A stretch of 64,000 nucleotides of DNA, taken from positions 2,879,001 through 2,943,000 of the forward strand of contig NZ_BSDR01000001.1 of the NCBI RefSeq assembly GCF_027925305.1, read 5' to 3'. The stretch comes from Desulforhabdus amnigena. GTDB taxonomy: Bacteria > Desulfobacterota > Syntrophobacteria > Syntrophobacterales > Syntrophobacteraceae. Positions 5,045 to 64,000 of this stretch are shown piece by piece. The first letter of the stretch is position 1. Every line of letters starts with the position of its first letter. The notes below the pieces were generated by a model. The model saw only the letters and a program-made list of their open reading frames with translations, was not told the origin of the DNA and searched no databases. Both the position numbers and the translations under genes were made by a program.

Positions 5045-5153
5045 ACACCGCTGATTTCAGATTTAAATATTGCTGTTTTTTTCATTATTTGATATATTTT
5101 TTAATTCAAAAGCGGCTTGCGCCGCAAATTTGGACAAGGGGGTAACGAACTCA

Positions 5154-6941: not shown

Positions 6942-6975
6942 TCGACCGACAGGCCGTTCTACCTTTAAACGATTG

Positions 6976-7019
6976 CACCCGGTTCATGCTTCATGCTTGA
7001 AACCGGGTGTTTAATTTTC
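6976..7019 (+). terminator. Rho-independent terminator after rpsA
   Basis: CACCCGGTT (6976-6984) and AACCGGGTG (7001-7009) form a perfect 9-bp stem, followed by TTTAATTTT. It ends the cmk-rpsA unit and implies that sppA has its own start downstream, supporting the later sppA start codon at 7035. Confidence 0.8.
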
Positions 7020-7034
7020 GAAGAGCGGAAACTC

Positions 7035-7907
7035 ATGCGACTCCGAAGTTTTTGGTTCCTGGGTCTCATCGCGGTACCGGCCGCCATGATATTGTTTTGG
7101 ATGGGGGCATCGGATCTCAATTTCTTTGCCAAACCCAACCAGATTGCCGTCATCGAGATTCGCGGCCTGATAGACGATGCTCAGGAAACGCAGAAAGCCC
7201 TCAAGAAGTACCGCGAAGATGACAATGTGAAAGCCATCCTGGTGCGCATCGAATCTCCGGGGGGAGGCATCGGGCCTTCCCAGGAGATAGTCCGTGAATT
7301 GAGGCGAACCAGCAAGGAAAAACCGGTCGTAGCTTCATTGGGAGGCATCGCCGCATCAGGGGGATACTATATCGCTTCCGCCGCCAACCGCATTATTGCC
7401 AATCCCGGCACCATAACGGGAAGCATCGGAGTGATCCTCTCCTTTCCCAATCTCAAAGAGCTATTCGACAAGGTCGGCTACTACACCAACGTCATCAAGA
7501 GCGGCCCTTTCAAGGATGTGGGAAATCCCGGCCGGGAAATGACGCCGGAGGAAAGAGCCCTGCTCCAGGAAACCATCGATGAAGCATACGGTCAGTTCGT
7601 AAAAGATGTGGCCCTGGGACGCAATTTACCCGAGGAAAAAGTGCGACAGATCGCCGACGGCCGCATCATCCTGGGAGAAACAGCTCAAAAACTGGGCTTG
7701 GTGGATGCACTGGGAAACTTTCAGGATGCGGTGGATGCAGCGGCATCCCTCGGAAAGATTGAAGGGAAACCTGAAGTCATTTACCACAAAAAAAAGAAAC
7801 GGTCCCTGCTGGACTACCTGCTCGGCAGTGAAGCCGGCGAAAGCCTTTCTTATTTTCTCAATGGCTCGGCAAACTTTTTGCGGTACCAATCGCCGTTTTT
7901 TCCGTGA
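7035..7907 (+). CDS. sppA: Signal peptide peptidase SppA, 36K type
   Basis: A 290-residue S49-family serine peptidase anchored in the inner membrane, which degrades cleaved signal peptides. An N-terminal membrane segment (FWFLGLIAVPAAMILFWMG) is followed by the domain core: AILVRIESPGGGIGPSQEI, then SLGGIAASGGYYIASAANRI with the nucleophile serine in ASGGYY, and GSIGVI; the lysine partner lies in the KSGPFKD segment. It is the short single-domain form. Start chosen at ATG 7035 because the earlier in-frame start at 6993 lies inside the rpsA terminator. It converges with the YciO-type gene. Confidence 0.88.
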   Translation: MRLRSFWFLGLIAVPAAMILFWMGASDLNFFAKPNQIAVIEIRGLIDDAQETQKALKKYREDDNVKAILVRIESPGGGIGPSQEIVRELRRTSKEKPVVASLGGIAASGGYYIASAANRIIANPGTITGSIGVILSFPNLKELFDKVGYYTNVIKSGPFKDVGNPGREMTPEERALLQETIDEAYGQFVKDVALGRNLPEEKVRQIADGRIILGETAQKLGLVDALGNFQDAVDAAASLGKIEGKPEVIYHKKKKRSLLDYLLGSEAGESLSYFLNGSANFLRYQSPFFP

Positions 7908-13111: not shown

Positions 13112-13846
13112 ATGAAAGACAAAAACCAACGATTTTACCGCTATCAACACCAAAGCAAGGAAGGCTGGTTCGCTTTTCAAACCCGCTACAGGGAAACGGA
13201 CCTCTGGATACGTGCCAGGCGGGATGTCGGTAAAGAAGCTTTGACCGCCGTACTCAACTACCGACACCAACTGGAACGTTATATTTCACAACACCCGGAA
13301 TTCCTCACTTCCCTGGCGCCCCTTCCCGAAGATCCTCTTGCCCCTCCCCTCGTCCGCCACATGATCGAAGCCTCCCGGAAGGCGGGAGTAGGCCCCATGG
13401 CCGGCGTGGCGGGTGCCATGGCACAGTTTGTCGCCCGGGATCTCAAACCTCTGACTCCAGCCATCATCATCGAAAACGGAGGAGACTGCTACCTGGATAT
13501 CCAGGAAGAGATGCGGATCGGCATTTACGCGGGGCCGGATTCCCCTTTCAGCGGACGGATGGCTCTGCGCTTCCCCCCCGAGCGATTTCCCCTGGGAATT
13601 TGCACGTCATCGGGCACTATCGGGCATTCCCTGAGTTTCGGAAGGGCAAACGCCGTGACCGTCGTCTCCCAAGATGCCGTTCTGGCCGACGCAGCGGCCA
13701 CAGCACTGGGAAACCTTGTTCGGCGGCCGGAAGACATCGCCCGCACCCTTGAAAAGGCGGCAGGCATTCCATCCGTCGAAGGGGTCCTCATTGTGGTGAA
13801 AGATAAAATAGGCATATGGGGAGATCTGGAACTCATCCCCCTCTGA
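13112..13846 (+). CDS. UPF0280 family protein (ApbE-like fold)
   Basis: A protein of about 244 residues of the UPF0280 family, related in fold to ApbE/flavin-transfer proteins; its function is not established. Conserved features visible are VGPMAGVAGAMAQFVARDL, IIIENGGDCYLDI, GICTSSGTIGHSLSFGRANA and AATALGNLV. I start it at ATG 13112, giving the usual family length; an earlier TTG at 13037 would overlap the guaA end and lacks a ribosome binding site. It sits between guaA and a phosphoesterase gene, all on the same strand. Confidence 0.8.
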   Translation: MKDKNQRFYRYQHQSKEGWFAFQTRYRETDLWIRARRDVGKEALTAVLNYRHQLERYISQHPEFLTSLAPLPEDPLAPPLVRHMIEASRKAGVGPMAGVAGAMAQFVARDLKPLTPAIIIENGGDCYLDIQEEMRIGIYAGPDSPFSGRMALRFPPERFPLGICTSSGTIGHSLSFGRANAVTVVSQDAVLADAAATALGNLVRRPEDIARTLEKAAGIPSVEGVLIVVKDKIGIWGDLELIPL

Positions 13847-51860: not shown

Positions 51861-51972
51861 TAGAACCTATCCGGAACCCCCTGTGGACTTTGCACCCCCC
51901 CTTCAGTTCCCCCCCCTCGAGGGGGACCAAGGGGGGTGTCCGCTGCCGAGGTAGGTTTTCGGGTAGGCTCTT
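51861..51972 (+). repeat. Palindromic dispersed repeat C, copy 3
   Basis: TAGAACCTATCCGGAA to TTTTCGGGTAGGCTCTTA, with CCCCTCGAGGGGGACCAAGG inside. It is nearly identical to 33254-33367. It lies at the truncated end of the cbiZ-like remnant. Confidence 0.85.
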
Positions 51973-51999
51973 AGTCGCCATGATCCGTCTCCTCGAGGT

Positions 52000-52166
52000 T
52001 CAGCTCCGGCCATTTCTCCTTGGATTGTAGATGCAGGCCAGGTCGTCCCTGATCCCTCCCGCCGCCCACAGGTCGAAATCACCCGATGAGGCGCCAGGAA
52101 TTTCCCGAATATGATCTTCTCCTCACGATGAATTTCTACACCGTCATAGAAAACGCCAAGCAACAT
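52000..52166 (-). pseudogene. Adenosylcobinamide amidohydrolase (CbiZ-like) remnant
   Basis: A good start (GGAGGAACTC before ATG 52166) opens a frame reading LGVFYDGVEIHREEKIIFGK and FLAPHRVISTC, which I recognise as the N-terminus of CbiZ-type proteins used in corrinoid salvage. Near 52062-52072 one base appears to be missing: the neighbouring frame continues WAAGGIRDDLACIYN, the expected next motif, and then stops at 52000. The rest of the gene is absent, and repeat C follows. I judge it a frameshifted and truncated pseudogene. Confidence 0.6.
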
Positions 52167-52267
52167 GAGTTCCTCCGCTTGTTGAAATGATCGATCTCCT
52201 CTCCCTGCTGGCCGATGAAGACGCGCAACGCATGCCCCGAGTAAACGCAGTACGCTCATCGCTCCAG

Positions 52268-52791
52268 CTACTTCAATTGGAACAGCATGGGGAGACCGGT
52301 CTTACAAAAGACTGGTCTCCCATTCAATCTTGCCGGCTTGAAGGTCGAGCTTTTCACGGCCAGCAGGGCTTCCTCGTCAAACCTGGACCCGGCTCGCGTG
52401 ACCACCTCCACGTGGACGAAACACCCGTTCTCATCTATGGTGAGCTGCAGAACCACGGTCTCCTCCTTTCCCATCTCCCTGGCAAGCAGAGGATACCTGG
52501 AGAGGACCCGGGTGGCGAACCGGGGGCCGTCTCCCGATCCGAAGGGCGCGTTGAGTGGGCCGTACCCTCCACCGGAGCCGACTCAAGAGCCGGCGCCAGG
52601 GCATTCTCCCGACTGCTCTTTTCCATGGCCTTCGCCATCCGGCCACCCAAACCATTCGCCGCCGCCTTTCACATCTTGAAGACGGAGAAGGCTGACTGTA
52701 CAAAGTGGCGAATCTGCACTCTCGGGAGGTATCAGTTACACGCAACCCCCACCGCCAACAGGCGGAATATATGATCCAAATGGCTCTCCAT
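52268..52791 (-). pseudogene. TonB energy-transducer pseudogene
   Basis: The C-terminal 80 residues are a clear TonB C-terminal domain: RFATRVLSRYPLLAREMGKE, TVVLQLTIDENGCFVHVEVV, DEEALLAVKSSTFKPARL. Upstream, the same frame has a stop in the Gly-rich linker at about 52585, while another frame supplies a linker-like SSRENALAPALESAPVEG. A hydrophobic N-terminal start (ESHLDHIFRLLAVGVA at 52791) ends at a stop after 19 residues. It therefore looks like one tonB gene broken by at least two lesions. It would have energised the BtuB receptor encoded at 58-60 kb. Confidence 0.6.
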
Positions 52792-52917
52792 GAGCCCTTC
52801 GCTGTGCTCGCGCACCCACTCGAAGGGCTTCTCTTCTATGAACAGGTCAGCGAATGTTTCCGATTGTGAACAGGTCAAAACGGGCTCAGCCGAATTTGCG
52901 CAGACAGCTTTCCTCAT
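52732..52917 (-). CDS. Small protein coupled to cobN, unrecognised
   Basis: A 61-residue frame that starts with ATG overlapping the cobN stop by four bases (ATGA), typical of coupled translation. The sequence (CSQSETFADLFIEEKPFEWV, REHSEGLMESHLDHIF) matches no family that I know. Its last 19 residues coincide with the supposed N-terminus of the broken tonB gene, so it may itself be a fusion left by the deletion process. Confidence 0.35.
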   Translation of the reverse strand: MRKAVCANSAEPVLTCSQSETFADLFIEEKPFEWVREHSEGLMESHLDHIFRLLAVGVACN

Positions 52918-55900
52918 GCGGATGTTCCTTTCACACCTGCCGGCGCGGCCGCCTCCACCGCCTCTTCAATATCCCCTTCGATATCGAGATAGGCGTCGCG
53001 CAGCTTTTCCCGCATGTCGTCGTCGGCGTCCCACATGCCGCGTTCTATCACCTCTAACAGCTTGTCCAAAATATTTTGCAGAGCATAGGGGTTCACTTCC
53101 TTCAGCCACTTCTGCATCTCGGGGTCCAGTCCGTACCGGTTGGCCACCCGCTCGTACATCCAGTCCTCCATCACGTCGGCAGTGGCATCCCAGCCGATGA
53201 TGATGTCCATAACCTTGGAGATGTCGCCAGCGCCTTTGTAGCCGTGCCGCTTGAGGCCCTCCAGCCATTTGGGGTTGAGGAGCCGCGAGCGCAGCACGTG
53301 CTTGGTTTCCTCTTGGGTGGTGCGGAGAAGAACTCGTCGGGGATCCGAGGAATCCCCCACCAGGGCGAAGGGCATCACTCCGCGGACGGTGGCCGATGCG
53401 GCGATAAGTCCCCCGTAGTAGTTGTAGAAATCAGTGCAGGAGAGCATGTCGTATTCACGCGAATCTTCGTTCTTGACGGTAACGTCCATGCGGGAGAGAA
53501 GCCGCCTGAAGACTGCCGGGGTATGTGTGCCGTAGTGTCCCCGGCCGTAAGCATGAGAGGAATAGCGGATGTAGGCTTCACCCAGGTCTTCCCGGGTTTT
53601 CCACTGCTTGGATTCCACCAGCTCCTCCACCCCGGCGCCATAGGTCCCCGGCGGACAACCGAAGACGCGCAGAGTGGCAAGCCGCCAGGCATCCTGCTCA
53701 CTCAGGCCTTCGCCCCGGTAGTTGTCCCGGTCGGCCAGCACATGCCGGCGGATGAAATTGGATTCGGGCGGTTCTTCCAGGGCGGCGACCATGCCCACGG
53801 CATGGTCGATGAGCTGCACGAGATTCGGGAAGGCATCCCGAAAGAAGCCCGAGATGCGGGGGGTCACGTCGATGCGCGGGCGGCCGAGCTCTTTGGCGGG
53901 AATGATCTCGAGCCCCTCCACCACACCGTTGCTTCGCCATAGAGGCCTGACGCCCAGAAGATAGAGGACCTCGGCGACGTCGTCGCCCCGGCTGCGCATG
54001 GTGGGGCAGCCCCAGACAATGATACCGATGTTGTCGGGGTATTTCCCCTGCTCCTCGAGGCAACGCTTTATGAGCGTATCCCCAAGCGCCTTGCCCACTT
54101 CCCATGCTGCGGGAGAGGGAATGGTGCGCGGGTCGAGCGAAAAGAAGTTGCGGCCTGTGGGAAGAATGTCTGCCTGGCCGCGAGTGGGAGCGCCGGATGG
54201 TCCAGGAGGAACGAAGCCCCCGGAGAAAGACGAAAGGGCAGCGCTCATTTCTTCTTTCGTGCGCATAATATTGGGAGTCAGAATATCAGTTATGTAACGC
54301 AGGACCCGTTCGATGCGGGGAAAGGCCTTTCCCTGGAAAGCTGTTGCCAGCTCCGGAATGGCTTCGGGATCATAGCCGCGAGCGTCCAGGGCGCGAATGA
54401 GCTCCCGGGCACAGTTATGGGCGCGCTCGATGAGCTTGCCTCCTGTCATGCCTCCCGATCCGGGGACGGCTTCGCCCCGCCGGTCCAGCAATTCGTCGTA
54501 GCGGAAGCCCATGGCCGCAACGATCTCTTCCCGAAGCGACGGGACATCCCCGTTGGGAAGCCGGGTCAACTGCGCCAGAAATTCCACCAGCCGTTCGCCT
54601 TCAGGAGGTTCTCCCAGAACGTGAAGGCCGTCACTGATCATGGTGTCCGAAAGCTCGCTCAGATAACTGTGGAGCCTGGCCAGGAAAGCATCCATGTCTC
54701 CGAGGGCCTGTTCGCGCGTGAACGCAAGATCGTGCTGCAGGTCGGCGGCCTCGACGGCATCCCACAAAAGGCCGGCCAAGACGGGCAGTTTCCCGGGATC
54801 CTGGCGAGCGGCCTGGGTGTAATCGTCGAGGGTCCGCTCCACGTCCGTCAGCTCTTCGTACAGATCGGCATTGGTGTAAGTCGGGGTCAGGTGATCGATG
54901 ATGCAGCAATAGGAGCGGCGCTTGGCCTGGGTTCCCTCCCCGGGATCGTTGATGATGTAGGGATAGATGTTGGGAAGGTCCATGATGGAAAGATCGGGAT
55001 AGCACTCCTCGCTGAGTCCCAGAGCCTTTCCCGGCAGCCATTCGAGGGAGCCGTGCTTGCCCACGTGCATGACGGCGTCGGCCTTGAAGACGTTTTTCAG
55101 CCACCGGTAATGAGCCAGGTAATGATGGGGCGGAGACAGGTGCAGGTCATGGAGTATCGCTTCGGGGTTCTCCAGCTTGCCTCGGGGGGGTTGAATGGTC
55201 AGAAACACGTTCCCGTTGGCCAGTCCCGCAAAGAGGAGCCTGTCCTCATGAACAAACAGCTCGCCCGGCATTTCGCCCCAGTTCTCCGTCATCTTCCGGC
55301 GGACGATTTCGGGCAGGGCTTCGTGCCAGGGCATGAAAACGCTCCGATCGGCCGTCGCTTCCGCCCGGTCGGCCATCTGGTCCGGAGTGAGCCACTTCCG
55401 GTCACAGGTCATGCGCTGCAGCAACTCGTTGGCCAGTTCATCCCCGCTCTCGTAGCGACGCTCGATGCGGTAGCCGCTCTCGGCCATCACGTCCAGCAAC
55501 CGTTTGACGGCGGTGAACGTATCGAGCCCGGCGGCACACCCGATCCGGTCGTTTCTCGGCGGATAGTGGTGAAACACGATGCCGATGCGTTTCTCGCTGT
55601 TGGGCTTGCGCCGAAGGTTTGCCCAGTTGAGAGCGAGCTTCACAAAAGCGGCCGTGCGTTCGGGAATGGGGCGATAACAGGAGAGGAGTGCTCCCGTGAC
55701 GGGATCCACCGTGTCCTCCTCCCGGGAGGCCACAGGAAAGGTGATCAAGTTGCCGTCGAATTCCGGCTGGGCGGCCTGGAAAGTGACGTCCATGATGGAC
55801 AAGCCCTGGATGCTCTCTTTCCATACCGCATAGGGATTGAGGGTACACATGGCCTGCAAAACGGGGACGTTCAAGCCGGGAAAAACAGTCGCATAGTCCG

Positions 55901-56723
55901 GCTGGGTCATGGTCATGGACATGGCCATGGCGCTCACCAGGACATCAATGCGCGGCTTTTCGCCGTCCATGAAATACTCCTTCACGACCTCGTCGGAGCC
56001 CCGGTTGCCGATGGCCGCATCCTTGAAGCGCATGCTGAAGACGGGCAGCACGTTGGCGCCGCGCGCCTCGATCTCCCGGATAAGGGCATCGATGTGCGCC
56101 AGGTTTCCGTTCAGCCAGTAGGTTTGGTTGAACCAGATCCCAACGGTAGGTTTTTGGCGATTGATGTACTCGCCGGCGTAAAGGCCGAAGTCGGCCACAT
56201 GCCCCGCCTCCGGGTGGTAGATTCCTTCCTGGACCACGGGCTGGGGAGGCGGAACGTCTGTCACGGGTCCACCCGTCAGCATGGCGGAAAGGTACGCCAG
56301 CGCCCGTTCGACGTTCACCGGCCCGCCGGCGGTCAGGTAGCGGCAGAGGGCCTCCCAGGTCCCGTCGTTCATCCCGTCGGAATACTCCCGCGCGGCCAGG
56401 ATAGCCTCGTCGTCACTTCCGGTCGGCTGGATGTACAGGTGGGGAACGGGCTGCCCCGCCGCCCGGTGCTCTTTGAGGGCGGAGACAAGGGGCTCGAAGG
56501 CCGGGCACGACGCCTTGCCTCCGTGGAGGGCTACGATCACGGCATCGGAGCGAAGAGCGTCGGCCACAAAGGCTCTTGCCCGCGCCTGATCGAAAAGCTG
56601 CGTTTGAGTCCGGGCCGATACCTCCACCTGACCTCCACCGTCACGGAACCTCGACACACCACGGCTCAGGGAAGGGAGCTCCGTCGCCGTCGCGCTGAAA
56701 TAGCTGATCTGAATTGTCTTCAT
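52914..56723 (-). CDS. cobN: CobN-type cobaltochelatase large subunit
   Basis: A 1269-residue CobN/BchH-family protein, full length. Recognisable segments: VGIWFNQTYWLNGNLAHIDA, FHHYPPRNDRIGCAAGLDT, SPPHHYLAHYRWLKNVFKAD, VMHVGKHGSLEWLPGKALGL, SIMDLPNIYPYIINDPGEGT and RVFGCPPGTYGAGVEELVES, plus SSHAYGRGHYGTHTP. CobN inserts Co2+ into hydrogenobyrinate a,c-diamide in the late-cobalt pathway with CobST, which are absent here; in organisms with early-cobalt genes, as here, CobN-like proteins beside btuB may serve corrinoid or metal handling. AAGGAGG precedes the ATG. Unlike its neighbours it is intact. Confidence 0.92.
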   Translation of the reverse strand: MKTIQISYFSATATELPSLSRGVSRFRDGGGQVEVSARTQTQLFDQARARAFVADALRSDAVIVALHGGKASCPAFEPLVSALKEHRAAGQPVPHLYIQPTGSDDEAILAAREYSDGMNDGTWEALCRYLTAGGPVNVERALAYLSAMLTGGPVTDVPPPQPVVQEGIYHPEAGHVADFGLYAGEYINRQKPTVGIWFNQTYWLNGNLAHIDALIREIEARGANVLPVFSMRFKDAAIGNRGSDEVVKEYFMDGEKPRIDVLVSAMAMSMTMTQPDYATVFPGLNVPVLQAMCTLNPYAVWKESIQGLSIMDVTFQAAQPEFDGNLITFPVASREEDTVDPVTGALLSCYRPIPERTAAFVKLALNWANLRRKPNSEKRIGIVFHHYPPRNDRIGCAAGLDTFTAVKRLLDVMAESGYRIERRYESGDELANELLQRMTCDRKWLTPDQMADRAEATADRSVFMPWHEALPEIVRRKMTENWGEMPGELFVHEDRLLFAGLANGNVFLTIQPPRGKLENPEAILHDLHLSPPHHYLAHYRWLKNVFKADAVMHVGKHGSLEWLPGKALGLSEECYPDLSIMDLPNIYPYIINDPGEGTQAKRRSYCCIIDHLTPTYTNADLYEELTDVERTLDDYTQAARQDPGKLPVLAGLLWDAVEAADLQHDLAFTREQALGDMDAFLARLHSYLSELSDTMISDGLHVLGEPPEGERLVEFLAQLTRLPNGDVPSLREEIVAAMGFRYDELLDRRGEAVPGSGGMTGGKLIERAHNCARELIRALDARGYDPEAIPELATAFQGKAFPRIERVLRYITDILTPNIMRTKEEMSAALSSFSGGFVPPGPSGAPTRGQADILPTGRNFFSLDPRTIPSPAAWEVGKALGDTLIKRCLEEQGKYPDNIGIIVWGCPTMRSRGDDVAEVLYLLGVRPLWRSNGVVEGLEIIPAKELGRPRIDVTPRISGFFRDAFPNLVQLIDHAVGMVAALEEPPESNFIRRHVLADRDNYRGEGLSEQDAWRLATLRVFGCPPGTYGAGVEELVESKQWKTREDLGEAYIRYSSHAYGRGHYGTHTPAVFRRLLSRMDVTVKNEDSREYDMLSCTDFYNYYGGLIAASATVRGVMPFALVGDSSDPRRVLLRTTQEETKHVLRSRLLNPKWLEGLKRHGYKGAGDISKVMDIIIGWDATADVMEDWMYERVANRYGLDPEMQKWLKEVNPYALQNILDKLLEVIERGMWDADDDMREKLRDAYLDIEGDIEEAVEAAAPAGVKGTSA

Positions 56724-56778
56724 AGCCCCTCCTTCTCACCTGCCAGGCATTCGATGATGTTGAGCCCGGACAGAGCTG

Positions 56779-56991
56779 TTAGTGATGCGCGCCGGCATAA
56801 TCAGCCCAGGCGAACAGCTGGAGCCCACGGTAGGTCGCTCCGGCGCTTCCCCGAGTGCGCTCGTGCACGTCCGGGAGACTGTCCAGGCTGACTCCAAAAG
56901 AAATGGAGTAGCGTCGGCAAAACTCGATGAACCGACTGTCGATGAGCGTACCGTTTGTCTGCGCCGCCAGGAGAACGATCCATGTCGCCAA
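56779..56991 (-). pseudogene. Radical SAM/SPASM protein remnant
   Basis: A 70-residue frame contains LAAQTNGTLIDSRFIEFCRR and YSISFGVSLDSLPDVHERTR, the strand-4/5 part (QTNGTLID, then SLDG-like, H.RTR) of anaerobic sulfatase-maturase-like radical SAM proteins. The N-terminal CxxxCxxC cluster motif and the SPASM end are missing, and no frame continues on either side. It is an internal fragment between cobN and the substrate-binding-protein gene. Confidence 0.6.
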
Positions 56992-57042
56992 CCCGCGGGA
57001 TTGGGCCGGCGACTCCTTGCATGGCAGCGGGCGTATGGAGCT

Positions 57043-57714
57043 TCACTGCTTTTCCTCCGCCAGAGCCGGCAGTTGCCGGTACCAGATACGCCGATACTCT
57101 GTAACGAGCTCGGGGTGGAAGATGCTGATGAGATCGGCAAGCACGAGGTCTGGGCGTGTGATGCCGGTTTCCCAAAAATCGTTGCCGCCTTCGGCATTGA
57201 CCCTGGCGTCATTATTGAAGACTTTTCCCGAGCAAAATGACGAAAAACGCTCGTAGCGATCATCGATTTCCCGCAGCTCCGCAAGGGAGCGGCACATCCC
57301 AGTGTCGACCCAGAATTCCGCCGCCCTCGCCCGCTCCACAACGGTTTCGATGGCGAGGGGAATGCTTCCCGGCGTCTTGTCGTCGCGCCAGAGGTAGTGC
57401 GCTCCGGCATCCTCCAGGAACCGGGCGTTGTAGACCAGAATGTACACGAAGGTCTCCCTGGCGTTGCGCCAGGGTGTAAGCACCTCCAGCCGCTTGTAGG
57501 TCCCGTGGTATTCGATGGTAAAGCATCGCGCGAAGCGAAGCCGGGCTTTGTGGGGAAAGAGATCGACCGATTCCGCGGCGGGGGCAGATTCCCCCGTTGT
57601 GACGGAACCGGGACTGCCCCAAGTGATGGGATGCATGCCCATGCAAAGCAGCCACGCCGCCACGAACAGGATTAACCTCCATCGTTTTTTCAAGGTTATT
57701 GCAATCTGTTGCAA
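57043..57714 (-). CDS. ABC transporter substrate-binding protein with internal deletion
   Basis: A 223-residue frame from TTG 57714 (AAGGA upstream). It has a signal peptide (RLILFVAAWLLCMGMHPITW) and the conserved start of iron/corrinoid-type binding proteins (FTIEYHGTYKRLEVLTPWRN, FVYILV). It then jumps directly to the C-terminal part (ARFLEDAGAHYLWRDDKTPG, NNDARVNAEGGNDFWETGIT, RPDLVLADLISIFHPELV). Full-length relatives have well over 100 residues between these blocks, covering the first lobe and hinge. The join is in frame near residue 96. It is probably non-functional, yet still an open frame. Confidence 0.7.
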   Translation of the reverse strand: MQQIAITLKKRWRLILFVAAWLLCMGMHPITWGSPGSVTTGESAPAAESVDLFPHKARLRFARCFTIEYHGTYKRLEVLTPWRNARETFVYILVYNARFLEDAGAHYLWRDDKTPGSIPLAIETVVERARAAEFWVDTGMCRSLAELREIDDRYERFSSFCSGKVFNNDARVNAEGGNDFWETGITRPDLVLADLISIFHPELVTEYRRIWYRQLPALAEEKQ

Positions 57715-57800
57715 GCAGAATCCTTCCCTTCTTTTTCGCTGAGTCGGCGCTTCGAAAAACCGCTAAAGGCTGTCAAACGATCCACCTATTCACCGATTTA

Positions 57801-57931
57801 TCAAAGCATGCCCGGAACGGCGTTCACGATTTTTTCCACCAGGTGCGCCGCCCCTTCGGCTCCAAGGAAAGGTTGGCCGCAAGTGTGGACTTCCCGACGC
57901 CTCCTTTGCCGTACACAGCAATCCGTTTCAT
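57801..57931 (-). pseudogene. NifH/BchL-like ATPase gene with its middle deleted
   Basis: ATG 57931 follows GGAGGTGAGGAA and encodes MKRIAVYGKGGVGKSTLAAN with a perfect deviant Walker A of NifH-type ATPases. About 70 bases in, another frame takes over and encodes AEGAAHLVEKIVNAVPGML before a stop at 57801, which fits the C-terminal end of such a protein. Only 131 bases remain of a gene normally near 800, so the centre has been lost with a frameshift at the join. A partner of CobN or of a corrin-related reductase is plausible. Confidence 0.65.
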
Positions 57932-58176
57932 TTCCTCACCTCCTGAGCCGTTTTCCTATGGGCCTTTCCACAGGCCTCGCAACTCATGGTCCCGTCATAG
58001 GCGTACTTCACGAAACCAGTCTCACAATCCCTGCAAGCAACCTTGGTCTTCATGGTTCGGGATTTCTGCATGCCCGCAGGGCCCGACTGGTACTCCGCCC
58101 AACGGTCGAAACAAGCAAGGTCGGGGATGTAAACGCCGCAATGTCCGGCCGAATCGCGGCTGCAAGCCGCTCCCAC
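57928..58176 (-). CDS. Small zinc-ribbon-like protein, frameshifted near its start
   Basis: A frame of 82 residues containing CGVYIPDLACFDRWAEYQSG and a C-terminal zinc ribbon (VACRDCETGFVKYAYDG, MSCEACGKAHRK). It overlaps the NifH-like start by four bases (ATGA). The frame is open further upstream (GKGRIPEFPLDLVGAACSRD) to within a few bases of a good start, GAGGAG-ATG at 58217 right after the btuB stop, but that ATG is one base out of phase. A single missing base next to ATG 58217 would restore a protein of about 96 residues. Whether this is mutation, sequencing error or true GTG initiation at 58176 is open. Confidence 0.45.
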   Translation of the reverse strand: MGAACSRDSAGHCGVYIPDLACFDRWAEYQSGPAGMQKSRTMKTKVACRDCETGFVKYAYDGTMSCEACGKAHRKTAQEVRK

Positions 58177-58225
58177 AAGGTCCAGGGGGAATTCGGGAAT
58201 TCGACCTTTGCCGGCATAGCTCCTC

Positions 58226-60310
58226 TCAGAAAGCCAGCTTCACGCCCCCGCTGAACGTCCTTCCCGGCATTGCGTAACCGCTCTCCGTATAGTCTTCATC
58301 GAAAAGGTTCTGGACGCTGAGGAATGCTGAATACTTCTTGAGAAAGGTATAGGTGAGCGCCGTATCGACGGTGACTGCAGAAGGCTCTTCCCAGCTTACC
58401 CTGTTCCAGTTGTTGTCATACAGGGGAACAATCTTCTCATCCTGCCATGCTACCCGCACGGATGTGGTGAGGTCACGGGGCAGCTTCAAGGTGAGAAGGC
58501 CGCTGATCTTGTTCCGGGGCATGTAGGTGCTTCGAACCCAGTCTCCGTCATCCTCGACCTTCGAATCGACATAGGTATAAGCGAAGTTCAGTTTCAGCCA
58601 CTGCCACGGTGTGATGTCGACGTATGTTTCAATGCCCTGGACCCGTGCCTCGTCGGCGTTCACATACTTCATAGTGAAGCCGTCATATTGGATCAGGCTA
58701 TCGAAATCCGTATGAAACCAGGTCAGTCCCGCCGTAACCTTCTTGTCGAGCAGCGTCTGCTCTATGCCGACCTCATAGCCGACGCTCTCCTCAGGCGTCA
58801 AGTCGGGGTTCCCGATCGTGTAGAGGTAACCGTTCCAGACATACCCCCCATAGACTTCGTAAAGGGACGGCGTGCGGTATCCGGAGCCCACATGAGCGTG
58901 GACCTTGGTGCCGAACTGTTTAAAGAGGTAGGCTGCGGAAGCTTCCCCAACGAGCTTGGAATCAAACTCCTCGGGGTAATTGAAGCGGCCTCCGAAATTG
59001 AGGAAGAGAGACTCATCCAAAAACTTGAGGCTCGCCTGGGTGAACAGGTCCCAGTTGTACCAGTCTTCTTTGTAATACACGGGGCTGTAGTCATCGTTGC
59101 TGGGATTGTTGGGTTCACGACCGTCGTAATCGGCCTGCTTGAAATCGAGACCACTGATAAGGGTGAGCCAATCGGTGACCTGGATGTTTTGCTGTGTTTC
59201 GATGTATCCCGTGGAGCCGTCGTAGTTGGAATGGTTTCCGTTCACAGTCGGCGTCCAAAAGTAATGGCGCTCGGTTTCCGCGTAGGAGCCTTTTATGGAA
59301 TAGTTCCAACAGCTAGAAACGGCATGGTTCATTGTGAGGCCGTACAGAGCTGAGAGGCCTTCCCGGTGTTGATCGGGATCGGCGGTTTGTGTCACGAGCT
59401 TGCCGTTGGCATCCAGACTGGGAGTGGTTTCCGTCAAGGCGAGGTCGGAATCGAAGTAGAGGGAGGTGAATTCGAGGGTGATGTCCGGAGTGATGCGGAA
59501 TCCAGCCCCGCCGGAGAAGCCGAGGTTGTCGTACCAGAAGCCGTATTTTCCACCGAATTTCTCACCGTCCGATGTGACATAGATCGGGTTAAAATCAATA
59601 TAAAACGAGCCCTGTCCATGGTAGAATCGCCCATTCTCAATAAATGTGCCATACTCCCCGAATTCGCTGCGGACTTCCGCTCCGGTGCCGCGCTTCCATT
59701 TGTCGGAAATGATGTCGATGACGCCGCCCATGGCTTGCGATCCGTACAGGGTGCTCTGTGTGCCCTTGAGGATTTCGATCCGCTGCATATTGCTTGGCGA
59801 ATACAAATCCTCAAGGAAGTAGGTAAACGCACCCTGGGGGTCTGCCTCGTCCTTGAGGGGGAATCCATTGTACTGAAACTGGATGTATTGGCTCGGCACG
59901 CCCCGGATGTTCAGATGGGCCCACTGTCCCGTTCCGCCAAGGCGCCGGAGATAAACGCCCGGCTCGTAGTCAAGGAGACCAGGAATAAAATAATCCTCCT
60001 GCGCGTCTCTTTCTTCGCTGGTCACAACGCTCACGCTTTTCGTCACTTGCGAGAGCGGCGTTTCGACTCTTGTCGCCGTAACGACCACAGGCTCCAGGTT
60101 GGCGGTTCCTGTAGCTACGACGCTGGCTTCCTCCTTTCGGGAAGTGTCGTCGGCCTCTTGCGCTTCTTTCCCTTCGGTCGTTTCCTGTTTGGTTTCTTCC
60201 TGTTTGGTTTCTTCTTGAGATTGGGAGGGCAAGGGATTGTGCGCCAAAACAGCAAAAAGAACGACCAGTGCAAGGATGAGCTTCGATGTCCTCAGTAGTG
60301 AAAAACGCAT
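58226..60310 (-). CDS. btuB: BtuB-type TonB-dependent receptor
   Basis: A 694-residue outer-membrane receptor. Signal peptide (SKLILALVVLFAVLAHNPLP), then a Glu/Lys/Thr-rich linker (about residues 31-65), TonB box LEPVVVTATRV, the plug domain (GVYLRRLGGTGQWAHLNIRG, RIEILKGTQSTLYGSQAMGG, VIDIIS), and a 22-strand-type barrel ending in RTFSGGVKLAF with the terminal Phe. Two cobalamin riboswitches directly upstream make corrinoid uptake very likely. AAAGGAGGTTGTCTCA precedes the ATG. The matching tonB and substrate-binding-protein genes in this window are damaged, so uptake would need copies elsewhere. Confidence 0.92.
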   Translation of the reverse strand: MRFSLLRTSKLILALVVLFAVLAHNPLPSQSQEETKQEETKQETTEGKEAQEADDTSRKEEASVVATGTANLEPVVVTATRVETPLSQVTKSVSVVTSEERDAQEDYFIPGLLDYEPGVYLRRLGGTGQWAHLNIRGVPSQYIQFQYNGFPLKDEADPQGAFTYFLEDLYSPSNMQRIEILKGTQSTLYGSQAMGGVIDIISDKWKRGTGAEVRSEFGEYGTFIENGRFYHGQGSFYIDFNPIYVTSDGEKFGGKYGFWYDNLGFSGGAGFRITPDITLEFTSLYFDSDLALTETTPSLDANGKLVTQTADPDQHREGLSALYGLTMNHAVSSCWNYSIKGSYAETERHYFWTPTVNGNHSNYDGSTGYIETQQNIQVTDWLTLISGLDFKQADYDGREPNNPSNDDYSPVYYKEDWYNWDLFTQASLKFLDESLFLNFGGRFNYPEEFDSKLVGEASAAYLFKQFGTKVHAHVGSGYRTPSLYEVYGGYVWNGYLYTIGNPDLTPEESVGYEVGIEQTLLDKKVTAGLTWFHTDFDSLIQYDGFTMKYVNADEARVQGIETYVDITPWQWLKLNFAYTYVDSKVEDDGDWVRSTYMPRNKISGLLTLKLPRDLTTSVRVAWQDEKIVPLYDNNWNRVSWEEPSAVTVDTALTYTFLKKYSAFLSVQNLFDEDYTESGYAMPGRTFSGGVKLAF

Positions 60311-60353
60311 TGAGACAACCTCCTTTCCCCCCTCGGGGAATGTTGAAAGGTTT

Positions 60354-60508
60354 ATGCATCCACTCAGGTCTCCTGGCTCACGTTCATCCTATTCGCCGCG
60401 CCTTCCCATCACGCCTTGGGCGTGACAGTGACATCCTTGCGGCTTTCGTCCCGATCACAGTCGCGGGGCGGCGGAAGATTCCCACTTCCTTCCCTTAAGC
60501 CGATGCAT
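60354..60508 (-). promoter_or_regulatory. Cobalamin riboswitch 1 (proximal to btuB)
   Basis: On the minus strand, closed by GATGCAT (60502-60508) and ATGCATC (60354-60360). Core elements in order: GGGAAGGAAGTGGGAA, CGCCCCGCGACTGTGATCGG, GACGAAAGCCGCAAGG, GTCACTGTCACG, GATGGGAAGGCG and the B12 box GAGCCAGGAGACCTGAGTGG. It ends 43 bases before the btuB ATG; a TTCCCC-GGGGAA hairpin next to the ribosome binding site fits control of translation. It represses btuB when cobalamin is plentiful. Confidence 0.9.
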
Positions 60509-60635
60509 TTTACTGTAGTGTGGCTATACGGTTCTATCGTTGATGCCTATTCCTCAAGGTCTTTCAAAAGCACTCCTTCGCGTCCCGGTGCCTGTTCACC
60601 CAGTCACCGATTCATCTCCGAAATGGAATTCAGCC

Positions 60636-60671
60636 AAAAAAAAATCCTTAGAGCTTTTGGCCCTAAGGATT
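60636..60671 (-). terminator. Intrinsic terminator downstream of riboswitch 2
   Basis: On the minus strand AATCCTTAG, loop GGCCAAAAGCT, CTAAGGATT, then a run of T (60636-60644). It lies about 65 bases after riboswitch 2 and before riboswitch 1, so it is the likely expression platform of the first switch. Confidence 0.8.
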
Positions 60672-60735
60672 GCACCCTGGTTCTCTTGGTCCTTTAGCGG
60701 TCCATCCGGTATTACCACGTACCGATCGACCCTAC

Positions 60736-60899
60736 ATCATCAGGCAGGTATTCTGACTTACGGATCAATCTACTCTCTGTGCCTTCCCATTTCGCTTGCG
60801 CAAAACAGTGGCTCTATCGGATTTCGTCCCCGTTTACAGCGGCGGGACCGTTCCCGGATTTCACGGGATTCCCTATTAAACCTTGCGGTACCTGATGAT
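60736..60899 (-). promoter_or_regulatory. Cobalamin riboswitch 2 (distal, upstream of terminator)
   Basis: On the minus strand, closed by ATCATCAGG (60891-60899) and CCTGATGAT (60736-60744). Core elements: AATAGGGAATCCCGTGAAA, CCCGCCGCTGTAAACGGGG, ACGAAATCCGATAGAGCCAC, GAAATGGGAAGGC and the B12 box GTCAGAATACCTGCC. No gene separates it from riboswitch 1, so both act on btuB in series, this one probably through the terminator at 60636-60671. Confidence 0.9.
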
Positions 60900-60925
60900 T
60901 CACTTATTTTCACGTAGCCGGTACC

Positions 60926-60998: not shown

Positions 60999-61913
60999 TC
61001 ATTCCGAAAGGTTATATTTGTCCAAGTATCCCCTGGGAGTCACCATCCAGCCGTTCCAGACGTAGGTTTTGCTGTTTCCCACGATGAGAATGGATTGCAT
61101 GTCCACTTCCTCGAAGGGAATCTCGGCAAGAGTCGTGATGCACTTCCACTGCCCGCCGCGCATGGCCTTTCGAATGATGGCCACGGGGGTTTCGGGGGCC
61201 TTTTCGCGGAGGATCACTTTCTGGGCTTTTTCCAGCAGATCGGGGCGCGTTTTGCTCCTGGGATTGTAAATGGCCATGACGAAATCCGCGGATGCGGCCG
61301 CCTGCAAGCGTTTTTCGATCAGTTCCCAAGGGGTGAGATGGTCGCTCAGGCTGACCACCGCAAAATCGTGCATGAGAGGGGCTCCAAGGATGGAAGCCGC
61401 CGCATTGAAGGCGGCCACCCCCGGAATCACTTCCACAAAAAGATCCGGAGGAACCTCCCCCTTCTCATCCCGAAGGTCCGCCGGCTCTGTTGAAGGGGTG
61501 CGGTGGGGAGGACTCGAAACGCGCAGGCTCCGTTCACGGCAAATGTCGAAGACCAAACCCGCCATCCCATAAATCCCGGCATCACCACTCGATACCAACA
61601 CCACGCGGTGTCCCTCGAGGGCACGATCAATGGCGAGCCCGCAGCGGTCCACTTCCTTTCGCATTCCGCTGGAAAGGACTTCTTTGCCTTCCAGCAATTC
61701 TTCGATCAAGCCCAGATAAGTTTTATAGCCGAGTACCACTTCCGCCGAAAGGAGGGCATCCAGAGCTTCGGGCACCATATAGGAACGGTAGCCGGGCCCG
61801 AGGCTTACAATGGATAGCCGACCCGTGCTATGGCGAGAGTTACATTGAACGTTTTCTGCTTGGGAACAATGAGGGTTTGGCTCCCGGCGCTCAGAAGAGC
61901 TGTCGCTTCGCAT
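60999..61913 (-). CDS. cobJ: (Cobalt-)precorrin-3B C17-methyltransferase
   Basis: A SAM-dependent corrin methyltransferase of about 270-304 residues, forming the ring-contracted intermediate (CbiH in the anaerobic pathway). Motifs: LSIVSLGPGYRSYMVPEALD, SAEVVLGYKTYLGLIEEL, VVLVSSGDAGIYGMAGLVFD, VIPGVAAFNAAASILGAPLM, DFAVVSLSDHLTPWELIEKR and IYNPRSKTRPDLLEKAQKVI. The start is uncertain: the only ATG (61913) gives a 109-base overlap with cbiG and about 30 unmatched residues, and no good start lies nearer the conserved LSIVSLGPG. A 25-residue insert-like stretch (SPPHRTPSTEPADLRDEKGE) follows CRERSLRV. Confidence 0.88.
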   Translation of the reverse strand: MRSDSSSERREPNPHCSQAENVQCNSRHSTGRLSIVSLGPGYRSYMVPEALDALLSAEVVLGYKTYLGLIEELLEGKEVLSSGMRKEVDRCGLAIDRALEGHRVVLVSSGDAGIYGMAGLVFDICRERSLRVSSPPHRTPSTEPADLRDEKGEVPPDLFVEVIPGVAAFNAAASILGAPLMHDFAVVSLSDHLTPWELIEKRLQAAASADFVMAIYNPRSKTRPDLLEKAQKVILREKAPETPVAIIRKAMRGGQWKCITTLAEIPFEEVDMQSILIVGNSKTYVWNGWMVTPRGYLDKYNLSE

Positions 61914-62905
61914 ACGCTTTGAACTCCTATGTGCTTGGCCACCTGAGTGGATGGATTGGGCACGGTTATGTTTTCGATCTCTTTGCGGGAATAAAAATGA
62001 ACAGGCCTCTGAAGCATTGCCGCCGTTTCGATGATCCCCGCCTCATCGGATTTGAGATCGACGCTCACAAGATTTCTAATGGAGAGTGGGGAGAGCTTTT
62101 CACGGGCGAAGACCCTTTGCAACCATTCCATGATTTCCTGGGCCGGCGTACCCCGGTTGCACCCGATCCCGACGACCAGATTCCGGGGGCGCAGCACCAG
62201 GCATTTCAGAAACGCGGGAACCAGGGCCTCCGAAACCCAGACGCCCACTCTCTCCATCAGGGTCGACATGAGGGATGGGGGGGAAGAGAGGACCTCATGC
62301 AGCCAGTCGATGTTCCCCTGGCTGGCCAAATCCCTCTTCAACCGGCCTTCAGGATCGTAGATCCAAACGGGTTCGTCTTCCAGGAAAGCCCTCGCCAGCC
62401 GACTGAGCATTTCAATGTTTTCGATCTCGAGACCCGCCGCCCGCGCCATCAGATCCAGAGCAGGCTTATCTTGAACATCCGAAGCGGTGGTGATGACCGC
62501 ATGTCCTCCGGTAATGCGGGCGACTTCTTTCGTGAGGCGGTTCGCTCCTCCCAAATGGCCGGAAACCAGGCTGATGACATACTCTCCCCTCTCGTCCAGC
62601 ACGACCACAGCGGGATCTTCCTTCTTATGGCGCAGATAGGGGGAGATCTGACGGACCACTATGCCGGTGGCCATGATGCAGACCAGCGCGGAAACCCTGG
62701 GCCAGATTTCCCTGAGCAGGTCCGCCATTCGCTGAAACCCCACGGCCCCCATGGCCAGGGCAAACTGATGCCGCACCGGCACATAACAGGCGCTGCCGGG
62801 AAGCTTCCCCTGCAACTGCAGCGCAAGGTCGGCTCCGTGGCGGGTCAAAGCCACAATGGCTATGGAGGAAGATTCAGGAGGAAACCCGGGCTTTTCGAAA
62901 TCCAT
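61805..62905 (-). CDS. cbiG: Cobalt-precorrin-5A hydrolase
   Basis: A 366-residue CbiG, which opens the delta-lactone and releases acetaldehyde from cobalt-precorrin-5A; it marks the early-cobalt (anaerobic) route. N-terminal domain: IAIVALTRHGADLALQLQGK, ALVCIMATGIVVRQISPYLR, KKEDPAVVVLDERGEYVISL, VSGHLGGANRLTKEVARITG. C-terminal domain: LVVGIGCNRGTPAQEIMEWL and SVDLKSDEAGIIETA. It overlaps cobM by 32 bases upstream and cobJ downstream, so the block is one tight operon. Confidence 0.93.
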   Translation of the reverse strand: MDFEKPGFPPESSSIAIVALTRHGADLALQLQGKLPGSACYVPVRHQFALAMGAVGFQRMADLLREIWPRVSALVCIMATGIVVRQISPYLRHKKEDPAVVVLDERGEYVISLVSGHLGGANRLTKEVARITGGHAVITTASDVQDKPALDLMARAAGLEIENIEMLSRLARAFLEDEPVWIYDPEGRLKRDLASQGNIDWLHEVLSSPPSLMSTLMERVGVWVSEALVPAFLKCLVLRPRNLVVGIGCNRGTPAQEIMEWLQRVFAREKLSPLSIRNLVSVDLKSDEAGIIETAAMLQRPVHFYSRKEIENITVPNPSTQVAKHIGVQSVCEATALLSAGSQTLIVPKQKTFNVTLAIARVGYPL

Positions 62906-63653
62906 GTTCGAAGGACTCGTCGTATAATTTGGATTTTTTCAATTCTTTCCCGGAGCGGGCATTGAAGACCTCTCCCACCATGATGATCGCCTGGCGGCCG
63001 ATACCGCTTGCTTTGACCTTTTGAACGATGTCGTCCAAGGTACCCTTCACAATGAGCTCATCGGGCCACCCCAATCGATAGGCAACCACCACCGGAGTCT
63101 CAGGGCCGTAACAGGGACTGACCTCGGAGACCACTTTTTCGATCTGCTGCACACTGAGATAGATCACCAGGGTCGCCCGATGTTGCGCGAGCGACCGAAG
63201 GTCTTCCCCTTCGGGAACGGGGGTTCGACCCGCCATACGGGTCAAGATCAGGGTTTGAGAAACTTCCGGCAGAGTCAGCTCCTGGGTGAGAGCCGCTGCC
63301 GCCGCGAAGACGGCCGACACGCCCGGCACCACGCTGTAAGGAATCCCATCCCGGTCCAGGAGTTCCATCTGTTCCTGAATGGCCCCGTAGAGGGCGGGGT
63401 CTCCCGTGTGCAGGCGGACCACCCGTTCGCCCCGTTCATACCCTTCCCGCAGGAGTGCATGCGTTTGCGGGAGGGTCATGGAAGCGCTGTTGTGAATGGC
63501 GGCGCCCGGTTTCCGATCCTGCAGCAAGGCCTCGGGAACAAGAGAACCCGCATAGACGATGCAGTCCGCTTCCTGCAAAAGCCTCTTCCCCTTGACCGTG
63601 ATGAGCTCAGGGTCGCCGGGACCCGCTCCGACAAAATGAATAGGATATTTCAT
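62874..63653 (-). CDS. cobM: Precorrin-4 / cobalt-precorrin-4 C11-methyltransferase
   Basis: A 259-residue CobM/CbiF: MKYPIHFVGAGPGDPELITV, KGKRLLQEADCIVYAGSLVP, VVRLHTGDPALYGAIQEQME, YSVVPGVSAVFAAAAALTQE, TLPEVSQTLILTRMAGRTPV, LAQHRATLVIYLSVQQIEKV. It methylates C-11 of the corrin ring using S-adenosylmethionine. The start is ATG 63653 with GAGGAACTCT upstream. It follows the cbiT gene by 49 bases and overlaps cbiG. Confidence 0.94.
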   Translation of the reverse strand: MKYPIHFVGAGPGDPELITVKGKRLLQEADCIVYAGSLVPEALLQDRKPGAAIHNSASMTLPQTHALLREGYERGERVVRLHTGDPALYGAIQEQMELLDRDGIPYSVVPGVSAVFAAAAALTQELTLPEVSQTLILTRMAGRTPVPEGEDLRSLAQHRATLVIYLSVQQIEKVVSEVSPCYGPETPVVVAYRLGWPDELIVKGTLDDIVQKVKASGIGRQAIIMVGEVFNARSGKELKKSKLYDESFEHGFRKARVSS

Positions 63654-63702
63654 AGAGTTCCTCGAATCTATCTGTTTATAGAGGGAGGTTTCCGGACAGT
63701 CC

Positions 63703-64000
63703 CTAAATGGGCTTCGGCCAGACACTCACCACAAAAACCGGATTGAGCGCCTCGAACCTCACCGTTTTTCCGATAGGCACAGACCGGCTGACCTGCAGTT
63801 GCGTAATCTGCATTTCATAGGGTTTATCGCTCCAGAAAGCCCGAACGGCTTCCAGAGTATCCAGGGTCGCTGCGGTGACGACCACTCTTCCACCAGGACG
63901 CATGCGCCGCAGGAGGTTCTCGAAAATCTCCCGCAGGTCCCCTCCGCTTCCTCCGATGAAAACACGGTCCGGATCGGGGAGCGCATCCAGCACTTGGGCG
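63703..64000 (-). CDS. cbiT: Cobalt-precorrin-6B methyltransferase/decarboxylase (CbiT domain), partial
   Basis: The last 98 residues of a minus-strand gene that enters from the right edge. VLDALPDPDRVFIGGSGGDL and GGRVVVTAATLDTLEAVRAF are the end of a CbiT/CobL-C methyltransferase domain, which methylates C-15 and decarboxylates the acetate side chain at C-12. The frame is open at base 64000, so the glycine-rich SAM site lies outside. It may be a stand-alone cbiT or the tail of a cbiET (cobL) fusion. It heads the visible part of the cobM-cbiG-cobJ operon. Confidence 0.85.
   Translation of the reverse strand, partial: AQVLDALPDPDRVFIGGSGGDLREIFENLLRRMRPGGRVVVTAATLDTLEAVRAFWSDKPYEMQITQLQVSRSVPIGKTVRFEALNPVFVVSVWPKPI

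Follow-up and report, generated by a model that had tools for sequence, protein, structure and literature searches.

What becomes of a corrinoid uptake locus when most of its genes are lost, and why would any of them be kept? Desulforhabdus amnigena raises this question in a stretch of 64,000 nucleotides (C1:2879001-2943000 of its 4.54-Mb, single-contig genome; hereafter the window), where an intact cobN and an intact btuB-like receptor gene stand among fragments. The locus (51975-60910), with all its features on the minus strand, sits downstream of cobalamin biosynthesis genes (60999-63725), which we take from their families to be cobJ/cbiH, cbiG and cobM/cbiF. The likely answer, in our view, is that a corrinoid uptake and processing cluster beside an anaerobic cobalamin biosynthesis operon was cut by at least six deletions, made tolerable by redundancy, while selection kept btuB and CobN. 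Along transcription, two riboswitches are followed by the receptor gene, a zinc-ribbon frame, the nifH/nifK, binding-protein and radical-SAM scars, cobN, and the tonB and cbiZ scars:

60726-60910, minus strand: cobalamin riboswitch 1 (RF00174, 115.9 bits)
60671-60643, minus strand: terminator-like hairpin and T run after riboswitch 1
60346-60517, minus strand: cobalamin riboswitch 2, directly before btuB (RF00174, 88.1 bits)
58226-60310, minus strand: TonB-dependent receptor gene, BtuB-like, intact (694 amino acids, aa)
57928-58053, minus strand: zinc-ribbon microprotein gene, open (41 aa; possible longer start at 58176)
57801-57931, minus strand: scar in which a loss of about 3.4 kb has brought together a nifH-nifD fusion (its 5' end) and a nifK-like gene (its 3' end)
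57043-57714, minus strand: scar of an ATP-binding cassette (ABC) substrate-binding protein gene (about 192 codons lost in frame, from roughly 415 aa to 223)
56779-56991, minus strand: scar of a radical SAM gene, internal piece (about 340 aa in relatives)
52914-56723, minus strand: cobN, class I cobaltochelatase large subunit, intact (1269 aa)
52268-52582, minus strand: scar of tonB, C-terminal domain
51975-52166, minus strand: scar of cbiZ, N-terminal pieces in two frames

What the locus once looked like can be read from its relatives. Searches with this CobN in 59 genomes including this one (26 matching) and in named genomes (25 distinct loci) gave orthologues at 77% identity in G003, 73% in G005, 69% in G004 and 68% in G008. 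G003 carries a colinear, undeleted cluster of about 24 kb over its contigs C130 and C88. BLASTN blocks shared with the window fall on C130 at the receptor (220-2368), the nifH start (2419-2499), the binding protein (6058-6257 and 6881-7282), the radical SAM gene (13299-13411) and cobN (from 14086), and on C88 at the end of cobN (9-379) and at tonB-cbiZ (5144-5761). Between these blocks, G003 encodes a NifH-NifD fusion, a NifK-like protein, homologues of a FecCD permease, an ABC ATPase, a binding protein-CbiZ fusion, a nitrilase and radical SAM, and two ChlI/ChlD-type genes; the family models for permease, fusion, nitrilase, radical SAM, ChlD and CbiZ were run on homologues of G004 or G008. About 16 of the 24 kb are missing from the window through at least six deletions, which removed the permease, the ATPase, the binding protein-CbiZ fusion, the nitrilase, two chelatase ATPase genes and most of NifHDK; comparison of open reading frames and BLASTN against the relatives recognized no sequence of the lost genes beyond the scars listed above.

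An initial annotation of this DNA had described an intact cobN and btuB among broken neighbors, and the comparison bears this out: both large frames are complete, the cbiZ, tonB, radical SAM and binding-protein pieces each match part of a longer colinear gene in relatives, and with a colinear, undeleted counterpart in G003 the decay is real. Other details have to be redrawn. What had been called a NifH-like ATPase remnant is a remnant, but really a single deletion junction, where the start of NifH-NifD (about 27 codons) is joined straight to the end of the NifK-like protein (about 20 codons; window residues GAEGAAHLVEKIVNAVPGML versus GAEGTALLVEKIVNAVSGM in G003). The binding-protein fragment is a remnant as well, but its loss of about 576 bases (BLASTN against G003) is in frame and leaves a 223-aa open frame with a start. 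A supposed frameshifted small protein (57928-58217) has no frameshift; 58053-57928 is a conserved 41-aa CxxC...CxxC protein. The radical SAM gene, whose membership had been doubted, lies directly before cobN in G003, G004, G008 and G005, all four of the relatives in this cobN clade whose sequence covers that stretch. The riboswitches at 60726-60910 and 60346-60517 and the larger gene losses are additions to the earlier picture. Among the relatives, G004 and G008 have cbiZ and tonB in opposite order, and a periplasmic binding protein and CbiZ form one polypeptide in G008 (L062, 372-2384). Another decayed copy is seen in G016 (contig C39, L114, 3905-7950), where fragments of btuB, binding protein, nitrilase, radical SAM, ChlD and ChlI surround an open zinc-ribbon frame and two riboswitches.

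Is the survival of the two large genes more than luck? When six deletions were placed at random, btuB and cobN were both spared in 14 of 200,000 trials (7e-5), and genes of at least that total length in 0.052% (5.2e-4). The model uses G003 coordinates as its gene map, with some gene starts estimated, and assumes that C130 and C88 join inside cobN, as is suggested by colinearity with the window and by gene order in G004 and G008. Pairwise ratios of nonsynonymous to synonymous rates (dN/dS) against G003 are 0.126 for cobN, 0.198 for the receptor, 0.248 for the binding-protein piece, 0.310 for the radical-SAM piece and 0.116 for the tonB piece. As the check suggested by the initial annotation, dN/dS thus confirms a low value for cobN but does not separate kept from lost genes; we dropped it as the sole test of selection, as intact genes and fragments are both low, and the deletion-placement model therefore carries the argument. 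In relative-rate tests, whichever of the four outgroups was used, the window cobN had no surplus of amino-acid changes (p 0.28 to 0.59; with G004, for example, 46 nonsynonymous and 142 synonymous changes in the window versus 39 and 149 in G003). Among the fragments, the binding protein is not accelerated (p 0.53 to 1), tonB is accelerated in residues (16 versus 3, p = 0.004 with G008; 13 versus 5, p = 0.096 with G004) and not in codons (p = 0.19 and 1), and the radical-SAM piece is borderline with G004 (22 versus 10, p = 0.05), the remaining two outgroups giving p = 0.47 and 0.18. Given the random-deletion result and the purifying selection on cobN, the retention of receptor and CobN looks selected, and the uneven decay with selective retention proposed earlier gains support from the deletion pattern and the absence of excess change in cobN.

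But what takes over the functions that were lost? The genome has four cobN, and a second cluster at C1:2374553-2398507 comprises, in order, a riboswitch, CbiK (with an apparent signal peptide), a riboswitch, binding protein, permease, ATPase, a gene that by its appearance we take to be cobO-like, btuB, radical SAM, two ChlI/ChlD-type genes, cobN, a second cobN, nitrilase and a binding protein-CbiZ fusion. Its btuB and cobN are 53-55% and 62-63% identical to those of the window, its frames are each about as long as their counterparts in relatives, and it contains the only other CbiZ match of the genome (the apparent binding protein-CbiZ fusion spans C1:2396339-2398507, L081). TonB_C matches occur at four places besides the scar, two of them strong (78.7 and 77.3 bits), and a further locus holds cobN with ABC genes and two ChlI/ChlD-type genes. 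Because of the second cluster, the TonB_C genes elsewhere and the further ChlI/ChlD-type pair, the lost functions are predicted to have substitutes in the genome, the nitrogenase-like module excepted. Looking for second intact copies, as had been suggested, thus turned up a full-length cluster; a CobN role independent of the lost parts, which the initial annotation had entertained, finds no support, since the second cluster supplies these parts, TonB_C genes are present and a further ChlI/ChlD-type pair lies by another cobN, so that such a role need not be invoked.

These parts suggest how the reduced locus may work. The riboswitches would shut the unit off when cobamide is plentiful, and the BtuB-like receptor would carry corrinoids over the outer membrane with a TonB from another locus. 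For the inner-membrane and remodelling steps, the second cluster would provide its BtuFCD-like transporter and its CbiZ, and the window CobN would insert or re-insert cobalt together with the ChlI/ChlD-type ATPases of the second cluster or of the other cobN locus. Redundancy would have made the remaining genes dispensable; the extra receptor and the extra CobN would be kept by selection, probably because they serve another corrinoid or differ in affinity.

The two retained proteins can be set against known families. CobN passes TIGR02257 (963.5 bits, cut-off 822.05) and PF02514 (1316.5 bits, cut-off 24.5), and with HVGKHG at residue 553 it carries the HFG(T/A)HG-like motif of domain III, with its conserved second histidine, given as a mark of the CobN superfamily in PMC12583661. 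No ChlI/ChlD or CobS/CobT partner was recognized beside this cobN at the locus; ChlI/ChlD-type pairs with open frames lie at two other loci of the genome, and the ChlD-like protein of G004 passes TIGR02442 ('putative cobaltochelatase'). ChlI/ChlD products in place of CobS/CobT are an earlier proposal, cited in PMC9227772. The receptor has E. coli BtuB as its best solved match (80 bits), and the cobalamin riboswitch directly upstream of it (60346-60517) has a counterpart in G003.

Several points weigh against a cluster reduced under selection. The receptor scores 144 bits with TIGR01779 (TonB-B12), under the cut-off of 599.7, and its best NCBIfam match is a heme-receptor subfamily (172 bits, also below its cut-off). 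The deletion test was framed after the pattern had been seen. The surviving fragments also have low dN/dS (0.116 to 0.338), so their breakage is recent, and continued selection is unproven by sequence alone. With outgroup G005 the receptor is accelerated in codons (47 nonsynonymous and 52 synonymous changes versus 20 and 56, p = 0.005) and in residues (81 versus 54, p = 0.025); with its own paralogue as outgroup, the values are p = 0.73 for codons and 69 versus 51, p = 0.12, for residues. The function of CobN in anaerobes that use the anaerobic B12 pathway is, to our knowledge, unsettled, and G001, of the same genus, has no CobN match, so CobN is dispensable in this genus. Much of this would suit an ongoing neutral decay, in which nothing is still selected and btuB and cobN have merely not yet been hit: the fragments still look conserved, which makes the decay recent, the receptor is accelerated with one of two outgroups, the G016 copy has its receptor also in pieces in a genome without a CobN match, and, next to the lack of a match in G001, one cobN match of G034 carries stops. 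However, the six deletions took two thirds of the cluster and missed both large genes, an outcome reached in those 14 random trials out of 200,000. Of 526 columns that do not vary among the other five sequences, the window CobN differs at 21; its four orthologues, each left out in turn, give a similar range of 18/523 to 39/544, and the own paralogue gives 69/574. Both points make neutral decay unlikely.

Could receptor and CobN instead form a self-contained pair like HmuR/HmuS of Bacteroides? PMC12583661 describes HmuS, a CobN relative (PDB 9d26), as removing metal from a tetrapyrrole without ATP. The related BtuS proteins, according to PMC6460266, affected iron removal but were not required for it. 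The slightly higher score of the receptor on the heme than on the B12 receptor model would fit such a pair. The window CobN argues otherwise: the HmuS-family motif LSLDHxxEFMGG reads LSCTDFYNYYGG there, and likewise in G004 and G008, with histidine and glutamate replaced in the window as judged by eye; neither end has the hydrophobic terminal anchor of the HmuS type, hydropathy being low at both; and among solved structures HmuS reaches 371 bits, well short of CobN at 802 and 694 bits. With ChlI/ChlD-type frames in the genome and cobalamin riboswitch control in addition, we regard an HmuR/HmuS-like pair as improbable. That the short forms are functional, reduced proteins, an outcome the initial annotation had allowed for, holds for the zinc ribbon, which is conserved as a short form in relatives, and in the 223-aa binding protein the reading frame, the start codon and the stop codon are intact and no acceleration is seen. 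As an account of the locus it is highly improbable: the binding proteins of three relatives and the own paralogue compared measure 428 to 467 aa from stop to stop, and what remains of nifH/nifK, radical SAM, tonB and cbiZ is missing ends or an unbroken frame. Assembly error has a negligible chance of explaining the scars, the genome being a single contig at 99.44% completeness and 2.57% contamination; kilobase deletions at several places are atypical of base-calling errors, and the Oxidored_nitro search of the genome gave, apart from presumed ordinary nif genes, one weak match under the cut-off.

For the cluster as we read it, reduced by deletion with receptor and CobN kept, the leader deserves a closer look. 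Both riboswitches exceed the RF00174 gathering cut-off of 31.5 over the full model (1-189), and the second differs from the first in sub-type (of the close pairs, this comparison covered that of the window). Across the region there are 5 terminator-like sites, versus 10.4 expected in shuffles. Close tandem pairs (<400 bp, same strand) occur seven times in 6 of the 26 family genomes, this one included, and two of the seven belong to this genome; such sites are seen at window positions 60346-60910, L119 11079-11710 and L118 9391-10086. The second cluster, where both types flank CbiK, had suggested that the tandem arose through gene loss between the riboswitches, an idea dropped on account of the recurrence of tandem pairs in the family. 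Apart from frames on riboswitch sequence, the gap between the two window riboswitches gave no coding match in the open reading frame comparison, the one search made of it. Judged by listings, the literature search made on this gave no publication on such a tandem arrangement.

The third open gene, the zinc-ribbon microprotein at 58053-57928 (MKTKVACRDCETGFVKYAYDGTMSCEACGKAHRKTAQEVRK), is shared more widely. Its stop overlaps the nifH start (ATGA), and homologues occur in relatives; at L113 and L117 a stop lies one or two codons ahead of the ATG, which makes the short form the actual gene at those loci, and at four loci, the window included, the frame may begin further upstream. Ten copies were found in 8 of the 26 family genomes, its own included, and the search model was built from these same ten. 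Their alignment has six invariant positions, including all four cysteines (C7, C10, C25 and C28), and their arrangement as two CxxC pairs within roughly 40 aa predicts zinc binding. Upstream of every copy, in the same orientation and on its own contig, lies a cobalamin riboswitch, at distances of about 298, 425, 1061, 1473, 1484, 1508, 2293 (window), 2387, 3937 and 11483 bases. Neighbors include btuB and CbiK, and some are presumably PduO-type adenosyltransferases. The window copy departs from the others at two near-invariant positions, G11 and R24, and some relaxation is therefore possible. The window protein stays below the cut-off of every Pfam family, and PDB matches to the profile are mostly generic zinc fingers. 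Across the phylum, 10 of 297 genomes match at E 0.01; strong matches (E <1e-17) are limited to the four found in G000 and G008, and the other eight have E 1.4e-4 or weaker. No publication on such a microprotein turned up in the literature search made on it, judged by listings. The copies lie in the window (57928-58053) and at L107 and L112-L119; in G008 (C3, L117, 5302-5889) the frame continues, by eye, into a piece resembling an OmpR-type response regulator.

How did the locus come to lie beside the cobalamin genes? In G001, the sequences of window positions 2.6-15.3 kb and 61.0-63.7 kb are adjacent, as they are in G003, G006 and G008 with gaps of about 0.5 to 1.8 kb, that is, in all four genomes with enough flank. 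The flank marker gene was found in 8 of 9 genomes searched; the G002 contig ends too early, and G004, G005 and G011 lay outside this comparison. The 45.6 kb at 15411-60991 are thus extra here and missing at the site in G001, G003, G006 and G008, and the corrinoid locus forms their right edge, abutting the cobalamin genes; in G003, the uptake cluster and the cobalamin genes are on separate contigs. Transfer of the whole segment as a single mobile element was considered and not adopted: an 80% orthologue of the oxidoreductase gene by cbiZ sits on a different contig in G001, with no shared neighbors in the stretch compared. The window contains no tRNA, and a repeat at 51912-51935, considered as a junction, is single-copy within the window. 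The stretch may be an insertion or a rearrangement.

The one lost function without a substitute leads back to the undeleted cluster. The NifH-NifD fusion of G003 (753 aa) matches PF00142 (295.5 bits) and PF00148 (198.5 bits), both far above cut-off, and its NifK-like protein (437 aa) matches PF00148 (162.5 bits). Among the best 25 of 28 NCBIfam families, the fusion stays below the cut-offs of CfbC (308.6; 402), nifH (305.8; 394.35) and CfbD (29.3; 268.4), and the NifK-like protein reaches 42.6 bits with the CfbD model, under the same 268.4. The stretches of G004, G005 and G008 compared gave no nitrogenase-like match, so among these the module is common only to the window locus and G003; the nifH/nifK scar in the window shows that their common ancestor had it. 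Elsewhere in the D. amnigena genome, PF00148 matched four times in a row at 1268455-1274663, next to a match of NifH at 1275710, a set that we read as ordinary nif genes, and gave one further weak match, under the cut-off, at 3647111. In the phylum, 223 of 297 genomes match the G003 fusion (up to three candidates scored per genome, with G003 itself outside that sample's table), and nearly all matches listed are weak or cover just the NifH part. The full-length fusions among them are those of G129 (51%) and G090 (46%); an apparent third in G307, at 34% over residues 2-641 with one stop, turned out to be two matches, one to NifH and a weak one to NifD. The fusion is followed by a NifK-like protein in G003 (L071, 2434-5998), G129 (L108, 48-3372) and G090 (L109, 10913-14403). 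G129 has three cobalamin riboswitches and BtuFCD-like genes within 16 kb, and around the G090 fusion no riboswitch was found and no corrinoid gene was recognized among the neighbors; with two lineages for it and one without, a link between module and corrinoids is suggestive.

Group IV nitrogenase-like enzymes with H, D and K subunits are described in the accessible part of PMC11423573, in which the terms 'fused' and 'cobalamin' do not occur. Like CfbCD, MarHDK and IsrHDK of that group, G003 has NifH-, NifD- and NifK-like parts; unlike them, it has NifH and NifD in one 753-aa polypeptide that reaches no listed NCBIfam cut-off, in a corrinoid locus, of which the window keeps only the scar. No publication tying a nitrogenase-like enzyme to a CobN uptake cluster was found within the literature searches made. 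We offer only as a tentative idea, and a doubtful one, that the undeleted cluster may encode an undescribed tetrapyrrole route, in which CobN and two ChlI/ChlD-type ATPases would work with a fused NifH-NifD reductase on imported corrinoids, the zinc ribbon taking part. Such a route would parallel Mg-chelatase with DPOR and Ni-chelatase with CfbCD, and the window would have lost the reductase and kept the receptor, the chelatase subunit and the zinc ribbon. This bolder proposal concerns the undeleted cluster, not the window.

Finally, we would like to place the locus beside known systems. With BtuB/BtuFCD/CbiZ salvage loci, the cluster shares a TonB-dependent receptor, Peripla_BP_2, a FecCD permease, an ABC ATPase, CbiZ and a cobalamin riboswitch; it differs in adding CobN, two ChlI/ChlD-type genes, a nitrilase-family gene and radical SAM, with the nitrogenase-like module in G003, and in that most of it is deleted in the window. 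The family matches of the window CobN and the G004 ChlD-like protein resemble a class I cobaltochelatase with ChlI/ChlD, but here cobN is linked to uptake genes and ChlI/ChlD are deleted at the locus and present elsewhere. HmuR/HmuS likewise combines a TonB receptor with a CobN-superfamily protein in an anaerobe, no ChlI/ChlD neighbor being left at our locus; the HmuS motif residues and membrane anchors are absent from the window CobN.

The deletional reduction of a redundant corrinoid cluster is real, well preserved and ordinary in kind. Of a large uptake cluster, a receptor, a chelatase subunit and a zinc-ribbon gene are left, and the other functions are covered by a paralogous cluster, which offers a natural test of which CobN-linked corrinoid parts are not interchangeable. 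The undeleted relative adds a nitrogenase-like enzyme to the question of what CobN does, turning it into a concrete, testable hypothesis.

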